A stretch of 54,670 nt of DNA from Candidatus Falkowiibacteriota bacterium (GTDB lineage Bacteria; Patescibacteriota; Patescibacteriia; Patescibacteriales; UBA12465). The notes under the pieces were generated by a model, which did not search any database, was not told the DNA's origin, and worked only from the letters and a program-made list of their open reading frames with translations. Within the stretch, counting starts at the first letter, position 1; every line of letters starts with the position of its first letter. The stretch spans positions 1 to 54,670 of the forward strand of contig JAACPL010000008.1 in NCBI GenBank assembly GCA_009995495.1, read 5' to 3'. The translations under genes and the position numbers were made by a program. Positions 3,608 to 54,670 of this stretch are shown here, one piece after another.

Positions 3608-5632
3608 TTAATAAGGATTTTGTCGACCGACAAGAATTTCAAGATTTCCATCATCATTAATATCGCTTAAAGATATTTCAAATTTATCTCTTTGGTCTTG
3701 ACTATAAGCAAAGAAACCGCCAACAACCTTGCCTTGATGATTAAAAACTCTAACATGAGGGCCGCCGCCAGAACTAGGAATAGTAACTATTTCCACTTTA
3801 CCGTCAAGATTCATATCACCAGCGGCTAAACTAACTCCGCCTCTAAAATTTTTATCATAGGCTAAAAAACTAAATTTTAGCTCACCACCTAAAGAAAAAA
3901 TCTTAACTAATGGTTCAGTTCCCCGTCCAGGAGTAGTGATTATTTCTACTTTACCATCACCATCTAAATCAACAGCTGCAACATTAACTCCGGTTCTTAA
4001 ATTTTTATCATAGGCAAAAAAGTTTCCTTCTAATTTCCCTTTAGCACTAAAAACTAAAACTTGAGGCCCACCGCCCTGCCCCGGCCCAACCACAATTTTA
4101 TCAAGAAAACCGTTTTTATGACTAACCGCTAAACTTAGACCATTTTTAAATAAAGGAAAAGGTCTAAAAGAATGATTATGACCATTACCATTAACTTTTA
4201 TTAATCCAGCACTAGCACTAATAATTGTGTCTTCGAAATTATTATTAGTTAAAGCTATTATTTCCGCTGAACCAGGATAGGCGCTTAAAAAAGAAAAAGT
4301 GGCTGGCTTTATTTGTGTTCCCTTGCCATCAAGAAAACGATAAAAATAACCATTAGTAAAAGTTGAATTCTTGATTGCTTTATCATTTTTTATTAAAATT
4401 GCCCCAGTATTTGGTTGTAACTCTAGAAAATTAATTCTTTCTCCATTATTAAAGTCTGAATCCTGGTTTCCTTTTGGTTTAGAAAAACTCTCTTGAGAAA
4501 AAATCTTAATTTCTCTTTTTGAACTAGCATTAACAAAAACACTAGCATCCTCAAAATCGCGACGGAATACGGAATTATTAATTATCTTAGAATTATTTAA
4601 AAGATTATAAGCTTGAGAATTAGCCCGACCTAAATTAATATCATATTCATCATACCACCAAAGCTGGGCATGGTTCGTTGTGTCGTAGTCATAACTAAAA
4701 AAACCATCACCTAAAAGGGTACTACTTAAACCAAAACGCATCAATTCAAAATTGTTTTGATCTTTATTATAAGTGTTAATAATTGATAGCGACGGGCTAG
4801 TATTAAGACTTGGTAGTTTTAAATAATTATTCATCGAGCTCGCCCAAATCCCATCACCTTCCCAAAAAGCCGGAAAATTTTCGAACATCATTCCATTTAA
4901 TGTTGATTGATATGGTTCATAAATTTTACCATTACCAATAATTAAAAAATCAGGACCAACCAAAGTTCTTGTTTTATCTAACATTTTTTTAAATCCCTCG
5001 GCCCAAAGACTATTCATCTCAGTTGTAGTTTCTCGGCACCCATCATTATCTAAATCAATGTCAGTTTTATTTACCCAGGCTAAGTCGCCCCAAGTATTAT
5101 CATAGAAAACACCGTCCCAAAGACCAGCGGCTTTGATATTATTAGCAACGAACTCTGGTAAATAATCATTAAACCTTTGCCCTCTTTGATTGGTTTGTGA
5201 CTTATTACTTAAATTAAGCATATAAGTTCCGGGCCAATTACTAATTTTATTACCACCCTCATCCTTTAAGTACCAAGAATCATTAATTCCCTCTTTTAAT
5301 TTTGGTCGTAAATGAGCGAGATGATAATATTTAAAATCATCCATTATTTCTTGAGCGGTAATATAGGCTAAAATAATAACATCAGGATTAAGTCTTCTAA
5401 TTTTTTTTAAAGCTTCGGGGCTATTTTCCTGAACTTCCATATCAAGAATTAAAAGATCCCACTTAGCTAAACTTTCCGCCTCATAGTCGCTTATTTCCCA
5501 TTTCAAAAAATAATTAGCTAAGCGTGGAAAAGTATTTTTTACTTCTATACTGGCTTGGGCTTGATTTGTAAAATTAAAAATAATTAATAATAAAAAAGCA
5601 GTATATAATATTTTTTGAAAAAAATTTATCAT
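3608..5632 (-). CDS. secreted putative glycoside-hydrolase-like protein with three C-terminal FG-GAP/VCBS-like repeats
   Basis: Signal peptide; TIM-barrel-like 'WDLLILDMEVQ...GLWDGVFYDNTWGD'; three ~50-aa repeats 'VVGPGQGGGPQVLVFSAKGKLEGNFFAYDKNLRTGVNVAAVDLDGDGKVEIIT'. Confidence 0.65.
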   Translation of the reverse strand: MINFFQKILYTAFLLLIIFNFTNQAQASIEVKNTFPRLANYFLKWEISDYEAESLAKWDLLILDMEVQENSPEALKKIRRLNPDVIILAYITAQEIMDDFKYYHLAHLRPKLKEGINDSWYLKDEGGNKISNWPGTYMLNLSNKSQTNQRGQRFNDYLPEFVANNIKAAGLWDGVFYDNTWGDLAWVNKTDIDLDNDGCRETTTEMNSLWAEGFKKMLDKTRTLVGPDFLIIGNGKIYEPYQSTLNGMMFENFPAFWEGDGIWASSMNNYLKLPSLNTSPSLSIINTYNKDQNNFELMRFGLSSTLLGDGFFSYDYDTTNHAQLWWYDEYDINLGRANSQAYNLLNNSKIINNSVFRRDFEDASVFVNASSKREIKIFSQESFSKPKGNQDSDFNNGERINFLELQPNTGAILIKNDKAIKNSTFTNGYFYRFLDGKGTQIKPATFSFLSAYPGSAEIIALTNNNFEDTIISASAGLIKVNGNGHNHSFRPFPLFKNGLSLAVSHKNGFLDKIVVGPGQGGGPQVLVFSAKGKLEGNFFAYDKNLRTGVNVAAVDLDGDGKVEIITTPGRGTEPLVKIFSLGGELKFSFLAYDKNFRGGVSLAAGDMNLDGKVEIVTIPSSGGGPHVRVFNHQGKVVGGFFAYSQDQRDKFEISLSDINDDGNLEILVGRQNPY

Positions 5633-47202: not shown

Positions 47203-48432
47203 TTATTTAAAATCCTTGCCCTTAAAAGCCCTTTTCCTCCCAAAATTAGCAAATCGATGAGCCTCTTCCCTGGCTTTTAATAAAATTGGCTTTAAATTTT
47301 CTATTAATAATCGTTTCTCTTTTTTAGTGTCTTGAGAAAAAACAATTTTATCACCACCATATTTTGAGATACCAACGAAAGTTAAATTTATATTTTTTTG
47401 CTTCAAAGATCGAGTCAAAAACCCAATTTGCGGACTCCCGCCGTCAATTAAAATTAAACCCGGTCTAGCCCACTCCTTATGCTTTAAGCGCCGACTTAAA
47501 ACTTCTAATAAAGCTCTTTCATCATCCGCTTCTGGCGCTTCCTTAATTTTAAACAAACGATATTCGTTTTTATTTATCTCTCCATTTTCAAAAACAACCA
47601 TCGAGCCATAACTTTCTTTACCACTATGATGAGAAATATCGTAAGCCTCAAGACGAAAAGCCTGAGCTTCCTTTAAATCACTTTCTTTCCCCAACAGAGA
47701 CACATCTTGTAGATGTTTAAAAGCCTTTAATTGGTCGGGATTATCTTTAATTAATTTTCTAATTAAGATTTTTTTATTTCCGCTTAATAATAATCTGATA
47801 CTCTCAATATTTTTCCGATAATCTTTAGCTGATATTTTATTAACACAAGCTCCAGGACAAAGTCCAATTTGATAATCAAAACAAGCTTTACCCGAATTAA
47901 TCTGACAAAGACTATAAGGAAAAATGCGACGAATTAAACGAAGAGCACTTTGCAGTAAATAAAAAGATTGATATGGACCAAAAATATCGACCTTCTTACT
48001 CTTAAACTTACCTAAATCTCTACCTCTGATAATTAAAGGCTTAGCAAAATCTGTTTTTGCTAAAACTAAATAAATAAAAGAACGATCATCACGATCGCGC
48101 ACATTATATTTAGGCCAATATTTTTTAATATATTTAGACTCTAAAATTATTGCCTCTAAAAGATTATCACTTTCTTCAAATCTTAAATTAACTGAATTTT
48201 CTACCATCTCTGCGATTCTCGGCTCAATATTTTTTTGAAAATATTGTTTAAGACGGCTATTTAAACTCGTTGCCCGGCCAATATAGAGGATTTCCTGATT
48301 TTTTCCTAACCAAAAATAAACTCCAGGTTTTTTTGGTGCTAAATTAGCTTTTTCTTTCAATTGCTTTAATGAATTATAGCTTTTAATATTTTCTTTCCTC
48401 TTTTTTACCCTGATCTTTTTAATTATTGACAT
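47203..48432 (-). CDS. uvrC: UvrC excinuclease subunit, short form (GIY-YIG plus RNase H-like domain)
   Basis: 'KPGVYFWLGKNQEILYIGRATSLNSRLKQYF', four-Cys 'LCQINSGKACFDYQIGLCPGAC', 'RLEAYDISHHSGKESYGSMVVFENG'; no recognisable UVR motif or C-terminal HhH. Confidence 0.92.
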   Translation of the reverse strand: MSIIKKIRVKKRKENIKSYNSLKQLKEKANLAPKKPGVYFWLGKNQEILYIGRATSLNSRLKQYFQKNIEPRIAEMVENSVNLRFEESDNLLEAIILESKYIKKYWPKYNVRDRDDRSFIYLVLAKTDFAKPLIIRGRDLGKFKSKKVDIFGPYQSFYLLQSALRLIRRIFPYSLCQINSGKACFDYQIGLCPGACVNKISAKDYRKNIESIRLLLSGNKKILIRKLIKDNPDQLKAFKHLQDVSLLGKESDLKEAQAFRLEAYDISHHSGKESYGSMVVFENGEINKNEYRLFKIKEAPEADDERALLEVLSRRLKHKEWARPGLILIDGGSPQIGFLTRSLKQKNINLTFVGISKYGGDKIVFSQDTKKEKRLLIENLKPILLKAREEAHRFANFGRKRAFKGKDFK

Positions 48433-48460: not shown

Positions 48461-48572
48461 GATTTGGTTTAGTTAGGATAGTTCTTTCAAGTGATAATTT
48501 TTTCATTTTCCTCCCACCTTTGAAGGAGCTATTATGTATGCCGGGGCCGTTTAAACGCCCCGGTTTTTTCTT
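48461..48572 (+). ncRNA. candidate ~110-nt small RNA, antisense to the uvrA 3' end, with SD + 6-codon ORF (MYAGAV)
   Basis: Consensus promoter plus GC-rich terminator CCGGGGCCGTTTAAACGCCCCGGTTTTTTC (48541-48570); AAGGAG then ATGTATGCCGGGGCCGTTTAA. Confidence 0.5.
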
Positions 48573-51084
48573 TTTTGAGATAACTTTTCAAATAAGTGCC
48601 AGTTAGACTTTCCTCATTTTTCGCCACTTCTTCCGGGGTTCCACTAGCAACGAGTCTTCCCCCTTTTTCTCCACCGCCCGGACCAAGATCAATTAAATAA
48701 TCCATTGACTTAAGCATATGCATATTATGCTCAATAACTAAAACTGAATTTCCTTTTTCTACTAATTTATTCAAAACTCCTAAGAGCATATCAATATCAT
48801 GATAGTGTAATCCTGTCGTTGGCTCATCTAAAAGATACAAGGTTCTCTTTCCTAAAGTATGAGTTAACTCTTTAGCAATTTTTATTCTCTGGGCTTCACC
48901 GCCGGATAAAGTCGTCGCGCTCTGGCCAATTTTAATATAGCCAAGACCGACTGATTGCAAAACTTTAAGCTTATCGGTAATAAAATAATTATCACCAAAA
49001 TAAATAATTGCTTCATCAATTGTCATATCTAAAACATCGGCAATGTTTTTTCCTTTATATTTAACTTGTAAAGTTTCTCGATTAAAACGCCGACCACGAC
49101 AAACTTCACATTCAACTAAAACCGCTGGTAAGAAATGCATCTCAATTAGGTTTGCTCCCGCCCCCTGACAAGCCTCACAACGTCCACCCGCTCGATTAAA
49201 GGAGAAGCGACCAATATTATAGCCTCGCTCCCGAGCTTCAGGTAAATTAGCAAAAAAATCACGAATTGGCGTAAAAATTCCGGTATAAGTTGCTGGGTTT
49301 GAACGCGGCGTTCTACCAATTGGCGATTGATTAATAACAATAATTTTATTAATGTATTCAGTTCCTTTAATTTCTTTAACATCTTCTAATTTTGCTCGAC
49401 CGCCGGGACGACTTTTTATATGTTGAATATTTTTATAAAGCACGTCATATAAAAAAGATGATTTTCCGCTTCCCGAAACCCCACTAACTCCAACTAAACG
49501 ACCGAGAGGAATTTCAACTCTAATATTTTTCAAATTATTTGCCTTAGCGCCAATGATTTTTAACTGACCATGACTTTGAGAACGACGTTTAAATGGTAAA
49601 GAAATATTTCTCTCGCCCTTTAAATATTGTAGCGTTAAAGATTTTGGAAATTTATCAGCCAAGGTACTATTTTTATTTAATAAAGTTTTTAAATCACCTT
49701 CGGCTACAACCTCGCCCCCATGAACTCCGGCTAAAGGACCAAGATCGACTAAATAGTCAGACGATTCAATTGTCCTTTCATCATGCTCAACAATAATAAC
49801 GGTATTATTTTTATCTCGCAGTTTTTTCAAGGTTTCAATTAATTTTTCCGTATCCCTCTCATGTAGACCAATAGTCGGCTCATCTAAAACATAAAGCGTC
49901 CTTGATAATTGAGAGCCGATTTGCGAAGAAAGACGAATTCTTTGCGCTTCACCGCCAGATAAACTATGAGACTCTCGATTAAGAGATAAATAATCAAGTC
50001 CAACTTTAAGTAAAAATTCTAAACGACTAACAATTTGTAAAACAACATTTTCGGCAATCGCCCGCTCTCTTTTTGTCATCTTTTCAAAATAATCATTGAA
50101 AAATTGGTAAGCCTTTTCAATCGGCAGGGCGGAGACCTCGGCAATATTTTTTTTCTGAATTTTGATAGACAACGCTTCTGGCTTTAATCTCGCCCCAGAA
50201 CAACTAAGACAAACATCGTCTTTAAAAAAACTAGCCTTACCTAAACCAGAACATTCCGGACAAGCGCCGTGAGGCGAATTAAAAGAAAAAAGTCGCGGTT
50301 CAATTTCTGGAAAAGAAAAATTATCATAAGGACAAGTCCAATTAGCTGAGAGTAAAAATTCTTGTTTAGAAAAAACTGCACTTAAAAGACCATTGCTATA
50401 TTCTAAAGAATTTTCAATCGCTTCAGCTAGACGCGTTTCGTCGCTTAATAAAACTTTATCAATTATAATTTCAATTTGATGTTTTTTCTTTGGCGCTAAA
50501 TTAATTTTATTTCTTAAACTCATTATCTCGCCATCAACTCTAGCCTCAGAATAACCAAGATTAAAATAATTATAAAGCAGTTGATAATATTCACCTTTAT
50601 GATCACGAACAACTGGACTTAAAATTTGCACATATTCTTCCCCCAGTTCTTCTCCTCTTGTTTTAATAATATCAAGCATCTCTTGTGAGCTTAACTTTTC
50701 AATCTTAGTGTTACAAAGCGGACAAAAAACCTCAGCAACTCTGGCATATAAGACGCGAAGATAATCATAAATATCAGTTAAGGTGCCGACAGTAGAGCGA
50801 GGGTTGTGGGATAAGGCTTTTTGGTCAATTGAAATTGAAGGCGCCAGGCCAATTATTTCTTCAACATCAGCCGGCTTTTTTTGACCTAAAAATTGGCGCA
50901 TATAAGGAGACAAAGATTCAACATATTGCCTTTGCCCCTCAGCAAAAATTGTATCAAAAGCCAAAGATGATTTACCGCTACCAGAAACACCCGTAATAAC
51001 AGTTAATTTATTATGGGGTATTTCTAGACTTATATCTTTTAAGTTGTGCATCCGTGCGTGGCGGATAATGAGTTTTTCGGACAT
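48532..51084 (-). CDS. uvrA: UvrA excinuclease ATPase subunit
   Basis: 'VITGVSGSGKSSLAFDTIFAEGQRQYVESLSPYMRQFL', 'SLSGGEAQRIRLSSQIGS', 'TTLSGGEAQRIKIAKEL', Zn-finger Cys. Confidence 0.97.
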   Translation of the reverse strand: MSEKLIIRHARMHNLKDISLEIPHNKLTVITGVSGSGKSSLAFDTIFAEGQRQYVESLSPYMRQFLGQKKPADVEEIIGLAPSISIDQKALSHNPRSTVGTLTDIYDYLRVLYARVAEVFCPLCNTKIEKLSSQEMLDIIKTRGEELGEEYVQILSPVVRDHKGEYYQLLYNYFNLGYSEARVDGEIMSLRNKINLAPKKKHQIEIIIDKVLLSDETRLAEAIENSLEYSNGLLSAVFSKQEFLLSANWTCPYDNFSFPEIEPRLFSFNSPHGACPECSGLGKASFFKDDVCLSCSGARLKPEALSIKIQKKNIAEVSALPIEKAYQFFNDYFEKMTKRERAIAENVVLQIVSRLEFLLKVGLDYLSLNRESHSLSGGEAQRIRLSSQIGSQLSRTLYVLDEPTIGLHERDTEKLIETLKKLRDKNNTVIIVEHDERTIESSDYLVDLGPLAGVHGGEVVAEGDLKTLLNKNSTLADKFPKSLTLQYLKGERNISLPFKRRSQSHGQLKIIGAKANNLKNIRVEIPLGRLVGVSGVSGSGKSSFLYDVLYKNIQHIKSRPGGRAKLEDVKEIKGTEYINKIIVINQSPIGRTPRSNPATYTGIFTPIRDFFANLPEARERGYNIGRFSFNRAGGRCEACQGAGANLIEMHFLPAVLVECEVCRGRRFNRETLQVKYKGKNIADVLDMTIDEAIIYFGDNYFITDKLKVLQSVGLGYIKIGQSATTLSGGEAQRIKIAKELTHTLGKRTLYLLDEPTTGLHYHDIDMLLGVLNKLVEKGNSVLVIEHNMHMLKSMDYLIDLGPGGGEKGGRLVASGTPEEVAKNEESLTGTYLKSYLKKEKTGAFKRPRHT

Positions 51085-51149: not shown

Positions 51150-51178
51150 TTGACAATAATTTATATATATGATATAAT
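51150..51178 (+). promoter_or_regulatory. extended -10 sigma70 promoter of the 51259 gene
   Basis: TTGACA (51150-51155), 17 nt ending TGA, TATAAT (51173-51178). Confidence 0.85.
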
Positions 51179-51258: not shown

Positions 51259-52020
51259 ATGAAAAAAATAAAATTTATGTTTTTAACCTTGAGCTTTTTA
51301 ATAATTAGTTCGGTAGTAATAGGACAGGATAATCTCGCATTTTATAACGAGCAAGGCAAAAGCGGCCCGTTAAGCAAAATAGACGATACTCGACAAGAGT
51401 ATCATGAGGCTGAGTTTGCTTTTATTGTAATCGGTGAGGGAGTTTATCCTAGGATGTTATTTAATGGTTATTCCCTGTATAAATCAGGGTTTGGGGTTGT
51501 TGGCTTTAGCCATGTCGACAGGATCAGAATAAATGGATTCGCCGAGAAGGGTTACCCGCCAATTCAATCAGAATTAGCCATTTTTGTTTCTGCCGCTCTT
51601 ATGTATAATATTAGCTCATATAATAACAGCTATGTTTTCGGCGGATTAGGAAATTATTATGGAAAAAACTTTTGGGGGCCAATTGCTGGGATAAAAGTAG
51701 AAAATGAAAATTGGGATTTATTATTTATGGGTCAGCTTTGCTTAAAAAGTGATATGGATCAAATGCCAGAAGTAGATATTTCTTTTGATCCAAATAGTTG
51801 GTATAGAATAAAACTAATGAGGAGGTTTAACGAGAAACTATCATTTGGGCTTTACTCGGAAAGATTTTATTTAAGCGGCTGTATGATTGAATATGATGTT
51901 AACCCAAATACTGCCACTGAAATAAAGTTGATTGGTTATCTTGGCAGGGAGTTAGAATTCGGAGGCAACAGTAACAGTATCGGGCTATCATTGAAAATTT
52001 CTAACCTTAATAAAAAATAG
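51259..52020 (+). CDS. secreted beta-rich protein of unknown function (possible beta-barrel-like)
   Basis: Signal peptide MKKIKFMFLTLSFLIISSVVIGQ; alternating aromatic/hydrophobic strands; SD AGGAGG upstream. Confidence 0.6.
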   Translation: MKKIKFMFLTLSFLIISSVVIGQDNLAFYNEQGKSGPLSKIDDTRQEYHEAEFAFIVIGEGVYPRMLFNGYSLYKSGFGVVGFSHVDRIRINGFAEKGYPPIQSELAIFVSAALMYNISSYNNSYVFGGLGNYYGKNFWGPIAGIKVENENWDLLFMGQLCLKSDMDQMPEVDISFDPNSWYRIKLMRRFNEKLSFGLYSERFYLSGCMIEYDVNPNTATEIKLIGYLGRELEFGGNSNSIGLSLKISNLNKK

Positions 52021-52035
52021 AAAGGTTAGAGCTTA

Positions 52036-52066
52036 AAAGGTCTTCAGTAAAATGAAGGCCTTTTTT
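52036..52066 (+). terminator. hairpin terminator between the 51259 gene and the distal uvrB-end repeat
   Basis: AAAGGtCTTCAgtaaaaTGAAGgCCTTTTTT. Confidence 0.75.
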
Positions 52067-52070
52067 ATCA

Positions 52071-52160
52071 CCTAGAAACATCCAACATATCTTCAATTTT
52101 TTTATAAGTAGTTGTTGGGCTAATATTATATTTTTTATTATAAGCTAATTGTTTTTTTCT
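52071..52160. repeat. 90-bp perfect direct repeat, copy 1 (remnant uvrB 3' end, ...[21 protein letters not shown] on minus strand)
   Basis: Identical to 53816-53905 base for base. Confidence 0.97.
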
Positions 52161-52560
52161 TTAACCTCAACATATGGCTCGAGATATAGCCATTATCAAT
52201 AGTAATTTCTACATCATATAAGAGCCATAGCTCTCGACGACTTTCTTGAAAAGCTTTTCTTTTAGCTCCTAAATTTTCTAACAAAGAAACACCCTCAGAA
52301 AAATTATCTATTACAATTTGAATCTCTTTTTGATTTTCTATTTTATTTCCATCAACAACTTTTAGACTCATTGTAATTTTATCACCTTCGTCACGCACTC
52401 TTAACCAACCACCAGGAATATCGTGTCCGGTCGGTAATTCAAAAACAATACGCTTCATTAAAAATTCCGACTTAATCAAAAGAGCTCCGGCGTCTCTTAA
52501 ACGAGCCCTAATTTCTTCCTTATTAATATTAGCAAATGTTGCTTCGTATTATATTTTCAT
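52161..52560 (-). pseudogene. CYTH-domain (ThTPase/class IV adenylate cyclase-like) pseudogene, C-terminally truncated
   Basis: Minus strand: ATG AAA ATA TAA TAC GAA... = MKI*YEATFANINKEEIRARLRDAGALLIKSEFLMKRIVFELP...WLRVRDEGDKITMSLK...; 1-nt frameshift near 52193 before 'WLYLEPYVEVK'; truncated at the repeat. Confidence 0.75.
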
Positions 52561-52563
52561 ATA

Positions 52564-53805
52564 CTAAGCTTTATAGTCTTGATTATCATCTTCTTGATAA
52601 TGCCATTCGGGGTGATAGTAATTTTCATTATTATTTTCAGCAATTTCATTAAAAATAGCTTCAAAATATTCTGAATTAGTAGTACTAATGAATTGTCGTG
52701 ATCCAAATGAAAGTTTCCCCTGTTGATACAAATCCATTAATTTTAAATAATGTTCATTTGTAAATTTATCGCCATATTTTTTAATTCCTAAAATCTCCAT
52801 TTCCATTTCTAACTCTTGTTTACGGGCATAGCGCTCAGCAGCATCTCTAAAATAATTACCAAGATGCAACTTCATTGCTTCCCTCTCATCAGTATTTTCA
52901 ATATTCTTTAACAGCTGACTAAATTCTTCGTTTTCCCAATTTATAGGCAGGGATGACTGACTCATTAATCTTCCTGCTTTAGGAGAAATCTCTAGTCTAC
53001 CTCCTCCTCCGACCACTTTATGTCCCAATATTTCGTGCTCAGTTGAAAATTCTGCTTCAGTATAATTTTTATACAATTCGGTAGAAAAATTTTTTCCTAA
53101 AGATGAAAAATTAGGAGTCATTGATAAACTATAGGTTCCGTTCCTTAAATTTTTCAGACGAACACGCTGATGTTCCAATGCTTGTGTTTCATCAATATCA
53201 TATTCGACCATAAGTTTTTTCAAATAATCTTCACTGGCAATATGTTTGGCTATATCTTCAATTTTACTATCATAATAACGGTAAGCATCTTTATTTCTTT
53301 CAAAATTTTCCTCAGAAAACTCTAGTTCTCCAACTTTTTTTACATCTAAGCTAGGACTAATTAAATATTCTTCATACTCTTTTATCAGTTCTTCCTCCTC
53401 TTTTAATTCATCTTCGCTCGGTTCTCTAAAATCAGTTTTAGGGCCATCAAAATTTAAATAAATTCGATTCTTAACCGTATACAACATATTTTTAACTTCC
53501 TTAATATTTGCCTGAAGCTTTTTCTCTGGAGAAATTTGTTCCGCTCTTTTTATTTCACTAATATCTTGCTTGTCTGATAAATCATATAAATCAGGAGAAA
53601 GACGCTCCTCTTTAAATTTCTGAGTCAGCCTGTCATATTCATTCTTACGCGTATCTACTTCTACAGTATCTTTAACATTTTGCGCGCCAGCTTCTTGGTG
53701 CCCAGATATAACCCCGGCACCAATACCAATAGCCAACGTGCCAATTTTAGCCATCTTTTTAGCTTTCTCTTTACCTTTTTTTACAAACGATTCAAATTTA
53801 AACAT
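52564..53805 (-). CDS. predicted secreted protein with HExxGH zinc-binding-like motif
   Basis: Start refined to MFKFESFVKKGKEK (53805), 4 nt after the uvrB stop; signal-peptide-like KKMAKIGTLAIGIGAGVISGHQEAGAQ; 'FSTEHEILGHKVVGGGG'. Confidence 0.65.
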   Translation of the reverse strand: MFKFESFVKKGKEKAKKMAKIGTLAIGIGAGVISGHQEAGAQNVKDTVEVDTRKNEYDRLTQKFKEERLSPDLYDLSDKQDISEIKRAEQISPEKKLQANIKEVKNMLYTVKNRIYLNFDGPKTDFREPSEDELKEEEELIKEYEEYLISPSLDVKKVGELEFSEENFERNKDAYRYYDSKIEDIAKHIASEDYLKKLMVEYDIDETQALEHQRVRLKNLRNGTYSLSMTPNFSSLGKNFSTELYKNYTEAEFSTEHEILGHKVVGGGGRLEISPKAGRLMSQSSLPINWENEEFSQLLKNIENTDEREAMKLHLGNYFRDAAERYARKQELEMEMEILGIKKYGDKFTNEHYLKLMDLYQQGKLSFGSRQFISTTNSEYFEAIFNEIAENNNENYYHPEWHYQEDDNQDYKA

Positions 53806-53809
53806 ATTT

Positions 53810-54670
53810 TTATTTCCTAGAAACATCCAACATATCTTCAATTTTTTTATAAGTAGTTGTTGGGCTAATATTATATTTTTTATTATAAGCTAATTGTTTT
53901 TTTCTCCTTCTTTCAACTTCTTTCATCGCCCGACTCATAGAGCCAGTAATTTTATCGGCGTATAAAATAATTTTTCCTTTAACATTTCTCGCCGCTCGAC
54001 CCATTGTTTGCATCAATGATGTTTCGCTTCTTAAAAAACCCTCCCGATCTGCATCTAAAATTGCGACTAAAGTAACCTCAGGCAAATCAAGACCTTCGCG
54101 TAAAAGATTAACTCCGATTAAAACATCAAACTTCCCCTCACGAAAACTTTTTAAAATTTCTGTTCTTGCCAAAGTTTTAATATCACTATGTAAATAATTA
54201 GAACGGAAGCCTTGAGTATTTAAATAAGCATTTAAATCTTCTGCTTGCTTTTTCGTTAGAGTATTAATAATTGCCCGTTCACCAAGCTTAGCAATTTCTC
54301 TAATCTCTTCCATTACATCATTTATTTGGCTTCTGTTTTTTTCTCTTTCAAAAACCGGACGAATTTCAATTTCTGGATCGATTAAGCCGGTCGGACGAAT
54401 TACTTGTTCGGCTATTTTTTTAGAATTTTTTAATTCAAATTCACCGGGAGTAGCAGTAGTAAAAATAACTTGGGCAATTCTCTTTTCAAACTCAGAAAAT
54501 TTCAAGGGGCGATTGTCTAAAGCTGAGGGCAAGCGCCAACCATATTGAATCAAAGTTTTTTTTCTCGCCTGATCACCATTATACATTCCCCTAACCTGAG
54601 GCACGGCAATATGAGATTCATCAATAATAGTTAAAAAATCGGGCTCACCATTTTCTTTTTTTGGAAAATA
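53810..54670 (-). CDS. uvrB: UvrB excinuclease subunit, C-terminal part (runs off the right edge)
   Basis: Frame open to 54670: [38 protein letters not shown]...; '[44 protein letters not shown]'. Confidence 0.95.
53816..53905. repeat. 90-bp perfect direct repeat, copy 2 (functional uvrB 3' end)
   Basis: Identical to 52071-52160. Confidence 0.97.

Follow-up and report, generated by a model that had tools for sequence, protein, structure and literature searches.

The end of uvrB occurs twice in a contig from a Candidatus Falkowiibacteriota bacterium, and the question raised by this locus is whether the DNA enclosed by the two copies is a mobile element or the trace of some other kind of recombination. 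The window analyzed here is the whole stretch of 54,670 nucleotides (contig JAACPL010000008.1), and the genome from which it comes (G000) is a draft of 0.94 Mb in 48 contigs. An initial annotation of the sequence described foreign DNA inserted at the 3' end of uvrB, either as a non-autonomous integrative cassette or through recombination-mediated capture. The reading we favor, and to which we give an even chance, is that two uvrB-uvrA arrangements (H1 and H2) recombined here through homology-anchored capture, leaving a scar, not a mobile element. The features concerned are as follows.

47203..48432, minus strand: uvrC-like gene, 409 aa, short form (TIGR00194, 4e-80, under the equivalog cut-off)
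48532..51084, minus strand: uvrA (TIGR00630 and NF001503 over the cut-off, NCBIfam)
51150..51178, plus strand: sigma-70-type promoter, perfect TTGACA-17-TATAAT, upstream of the 253-aa gene
51259..52020, plus strand: 253-aa gene (c11), convergent to uvrB, with a signal-peptide-like N-terminus
52032..52070, no strand assigned: hairpin that separates the distal copy from the convergent 253-aa gene, A/T tracts on both sides, bidirectional terminator-like
52071..52160, minus strand: distal copy of the uvrB 3' end (90 bp), with TGA TAA after it
52152..52164, minus strand: CYTH/uvrB junction, where CYTH ..GAGGTTAAAG meets uvrB AGAAAAAAAC.. with A-rich microhomology
52161..52560, minus strand: CYTH-domain (CyaB-like) pseudogene (Pfam CYTH 4.6e-5; cyaB 1.2e-6)
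52564..53805, minus strand: 413-aa orphan gene (c7), beginning a few nucleotides past the uvrB stop
53810..54670, minus strand: 3' part of uvrB, 286 codons, cut by the contig end on its 5' side (Pfam UvrB and Helicase_C)
53816..53905, minus strand: proximal copy (90 bp), in the uvrB reading frame, with AAA TAA after it

The repeat itself was correctly described at the outset. Comparison of the two copies gives exact identity across 90 bp at 52071-52160 and 53816-53905 (97/99 on extension through TTTTTAT), translation confirms that both encode the same C-terminal segment of UvrB on the minus strand, and a DNA search of the 0.94-Mb genome for further copies of the uvrB 3' end returned only these two, with an E value of 7e-42 that excludes a chance origin. 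Zero differences in 90 sites bound the divergence between the copies only to about 3%. Within the window, a repeat search found nothing beyond this pair and a 94-bp near-tandem duplication, 80% identical, at 3776-4021.

uvrB is otherwise single in the genome; its 3' part in the window shares 77-85% amino acid identity with UvrB of congeners, and the N-terminal 263 aa are found on contig C41, which a gap separates from the window contig. As annotated, the proximal copy closes in frame with K-TAA and the distal copy reads into TGA TAA beside a terminator-like hairpin. UvrB in each of 13 congeners is at least one residue longer than the end of the distal copy (for example, a protein ending ..EGFLDIAEK before the stop), so that the proximal K-TAA gives the canonical UvrB length and the distal TGA falls one codon short. 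The order uvrB ... uvrA-uvrC in the window is the same as in the family, and the uvrC genes at other uvr loci of the family are short as well (about 386-445 aa).

Two genes lie between the copies. The 413-aa protein has a hydrophobic stretch at its N-terminus and an HExxH-like motif, with H, E, H, and E residues invariant among seven homologs; the motif is HExxH in most homologs and HEILGH/HEVLGH in the window and in G021, the window having HEILGH. By its sequence, the protein is possibly an exported zinc protease. There was no usable match in Pfam, PHROGs, NCBIfam or PDB, profile searches were likewise unproductive, and a fold search with a poor AlphaFold model (pLDDT 55) gave no match. Homologs are located after uvrB in G014, G028, and G033, and the occurrence of the protein across the bacterial family is scattered.

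The CYTH gene, whose protein is 71-81% identical to CYTH of G001, G003, G009, G012, and G015, was read from a DNA alignment with five congeners. The alignment is co-linear apart from three lesions: the gene starts ATG AAA ATA TAA, with a stop at codon 4 where relatives have GAA; one nucleotide is deleted near 52193, after GAT, shifting the frame; and about 60 codons of the 3' end are absent, the gene ending abruptly at GAGGTTAAAG, where the distal copy takes over. On this alignment the CYTH gene in the window is dead, a pseudogene. The microhomology at its junction with uvrB extends to up to about 9 nt, an approximate length that depends on the donor CYTH sequence.

The shape of this junction bears on whether the whole arrangement could be an assembly artefact, two conspecific haplotypes having been merged in one contig. 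The genome is a fragmented draft, and the contig ends inside uvrB about 0.8 kb away; however, the roughly 9 nt shared at the junction are far under an assembly overlap, the gene on the truncated side is decayed, and merging at the shared 90 bp would collapse the repeat instead of doubling it 1.7 kb apart. We consider an artefact very unlikely.

The origin of the enclosed genes could be addressed by comparison with relatives, which a scan of a genome collection placed in Candidatus Falkowbacteria and related Patescibacteria. For most members of the family, uvrA is the next gene after uvrB or is separated from it by one or two genes. CYTH is the first gene after uvrB in four congeners (G001, G003, G009, and G012; order uvrB-CYTH-uvrA), and the order uvrB-413aa-CYTH-uvrA is found, without repeats, in two genomes of a sister genus (G028 and G033). 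The genes between the repeats are therefore not foreign, contrary to the first description: both occur in relatives, at this very place in the uvrB-uvrA operon. In the congener G008 (L050), the DNA about 0.5 kb downstream of uvrB carries a transposase-like integrase-core gene.

These comparisons also weigh on the integrative reading, in which a non-autonomous cassette, moved by a recombinase encoded elsewhere, would have used the uvrB 3' end as its attachment site and restored the gene. The 3' end of a conserved gene repeated in direct orientation is what such an element would leave, the uvrB-uvrA interval is variable across the family, and two tyrosine recombinases were indeed found in the genome, on contigs C12 and C47, away from the locus. 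Against this, the cargo consists of resident operon genes that are repeat-free in relatives, the decayed CYTH is cut off at the repeat, and gene and domain searches found no integrase or transposase between the copies, as had been noted, nor any recombinase in the flanking genes. Furthermore, among the uvrB loci of 39 relatives (several with short downstream sequence) none has a uvrB-tail repeat or a different cargo between the same ends, and no relatives of the 413-aa protein were found among viral contigs and phage records. On the first three of these counts a foreign cassette or integrative element is not supported, and we regard it as highly improbable. What stands from the original proposal is a real, insertion-like structure with the duplicated 3' end of uvrB at its borders, together with capture as the alternative that fits.

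Beyond the distal copy, the hairpin is present in a single copy in the genome, with a folding z-score of only -1.65; hairpins are also found after uvrB in G008, G013, and G015. The 253-aa gene gave no family match in family-database searches, and its homologs adjoin uvrA on the opposite strand (divergent) in G010, G013, and G015. In the congener G013, uvrB is followed by a hairpin, a convergent c11 homolog and then uvrA; this homolog is only 33% identical over 69 aa. The sister species G010 is without CYTH and has c11 adjoining uvrA; it is the sister of G000 both in the UvrA tree and in a concatenated UvrA/UvrB tree. The gene trees give no proof of transfer, because the UvrA and UvrB single-gene trees differ in their placement of G000 and the UvrB fragment is short (286 aa). 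The first suggestion, that the gene originally ended at the distal copy, is plausible for the flank, where G013 likewise has a hairpin and a convergent gene, but the shortened stop weakens it.

For homology-anchored capture, we define H1 as uvrB-(413-aa gene)-CYTH-uvrA and H2 as uvrB-terminator-(convergent 253-aa gene)-uvrA. Incoming DNA running from a uvrB 3' end through the 413-aa gene and across most of CYTH would have entered an H2 chromosome via uvrB homology, while its other end would have been joined illegitimately, at A-rich microhomology, to the recipient's uvrB, 90 bp before the gene end. Two routes could have led to this, homology-facilitated illegitimate recombination (HFIR) or the integration of an end-joined circle by a single crossover. 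This would leave uvrB intact and CYTH without its 3' end, to decay thereafter, and the recipient's 90-bp uvrB tail, terminator and 253-aa neighbor would persist as a relic. The recipient was probably an H2 strain, because the sister species is without CYTH and has the 253-aa gene beside uvrA. Uptake of the DNA was presumably by transformation; a ComEC family match, split across two contigs, and DprA are both present in the genome. Capture is supported by these competence genes, by the H1-type orders in relatives (four genomes with uvrB-CYTH-uvrA and two that also have the 413-aa gene), by the H2-type order in G013 together with c11 beside uvrA in G010, by a CYTH whose alignment with congeners breaks off exactly where the distal copy starts, and by the two-copy hairpin of G015 discussed below.

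Some observations speak against capture. uvrB stands directly beside c11, as in H2, in one relative only, G013, and the distal stop comes one codon before the normal end of UvrB. A perfect repeat beside a twice-mutated CYTH requires either a conspecific donor in which CYTH was already dead or later gene conversion. HFIR usually removes recipient DNA; such a deletion is not evident at the locus, nor does the model require one. The H1 and H2 loci used for comparison are those of other species.

The perfect identity of the repeat and the loss of the last codon and stop would both be accounted for by a local templated insertion. Here, in an ancestor with the order uvrB-413aa-CYTH-c11-uvrA and CYTH and c11 converging, a break at the 3' end of CYTH would have been repaired with 90 bp copied from uvrB, 1.7 kb away, using microhomology at both ends, an A-run on the CYTH side and TTTTTAT..CC on the c11-terminator side. 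G015 has this convergent CYTH-c11-uvrA order, and its c11 terminators end TTTTTTATTACC, similar to the window's TTTTTTATCACC. However, a separate event is required for the G015 copy of the uvrB terminator between CYTH and c11, and the hairpin in the window sits after the distal copy just as hairpins sit after uvrB in G008, G013, and G015; we consider this explanation unlikely. An old tandem duplication or operon rearrangement in one lineage, with the repeats held identical by gene conversion, would have allowed time enough for the disabling mutations in CYTH, and long direct repeats are able to convert each other, but a plain copy of the uvrB end would bring with it the 413-aa gene and not the hairpin and c11. 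This we judge quite unlikely.

The evidence from G015 concerns the hairpin at its uvrB terminator, CGTCATTATTAGTGACGG, of which that genome has exactly two copies, the first following uvrB, the second flanked by CYTH and the homolog of the 253-aa gene (L195 and L194, at G015:C26:1302-1319 and G015:C3:833-850), both sharing the flanking AATAAAAAA. Contigs C26 and C3 end near the hairpin copies, and the interval between them may hold an insert. The position of the second hairpin is the equivalent of that of the window's distal 90-bp copy; the CYTH/253-aa boundary thus bears a duplicate of the uvrB end in two species, differing in extent, hinting at repeated recombination of the uvrB-uvrA interval. 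A broader proposal, which we consider unlikely as it stands, is that the uvrB 3' end and terminator serve repeatedly as the landing site of genes captured through homology by natural transformation in this Patescibacteria family. Different genes (CYTH, nudix, phosphoglycerate-mutase-like and that of the 413-aa protein) would be inserted between uvrB and uvrA, sometimes with scars of duplicated uvrB ends left behind.

Patescibacteria carry competence genes and, to our knowledge, DNA-capture scars have seldom been pinned to the base pair. Read as a capture scar, the locus is a nearly complete fossil, with two parental arrangements, a joint and a leftover, and it warns against taking every direct repeat at a gene end for an integrative element. 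Natural competence has been shown in Saccharibacteria, another Patescibacteria lineage, and is widely inferred (PMC10633639, PMC12455944).

Among known systems, HFIR has been described in S. pneumoniae, A. baylyi, and P. stutzeri, and is defined by homology at one end and microhomology of 3-10 bp at the other (PMC3240628). The locus resembles it in having one-sided homology, a short microhomology opposite (CYTH ..TTAAAG against uvrB AGAAAAAAAC, an A-rich overlap within the HFIR range), a gain of about 1-2 kb, and competence genes; it differs in that the tail of the recipient gene is duplicated, whereas HFIR usually deletes a segment, and in being known from sequence and not as an observed event. 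Integrative elements at conserved gene ends, such as those at tRNA genes and the dusA-type islands, likewise restore the gene end and place direct repeats around the insert, but the locus is without an integrase, holds resident operon genes, has repeats that are not common to relatives, and has its inner gene truncated at the repeat; a limited literature search found no reports of uvrB as such a site. Linear DNA can also be alternatively ligated and then integrated by a single crossover (PMC3240628), and such Campbell-type integration of an end-joined fragment shares with the locus the perfect direct repeats, which correspond to the shared homology, and the lack of an evident deletion, although the circular intermediate is here only hypothetical. 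Read as capture, the locus adds a further case to a recombination scar of known kind, notable for its lineage and for the second case in G015.
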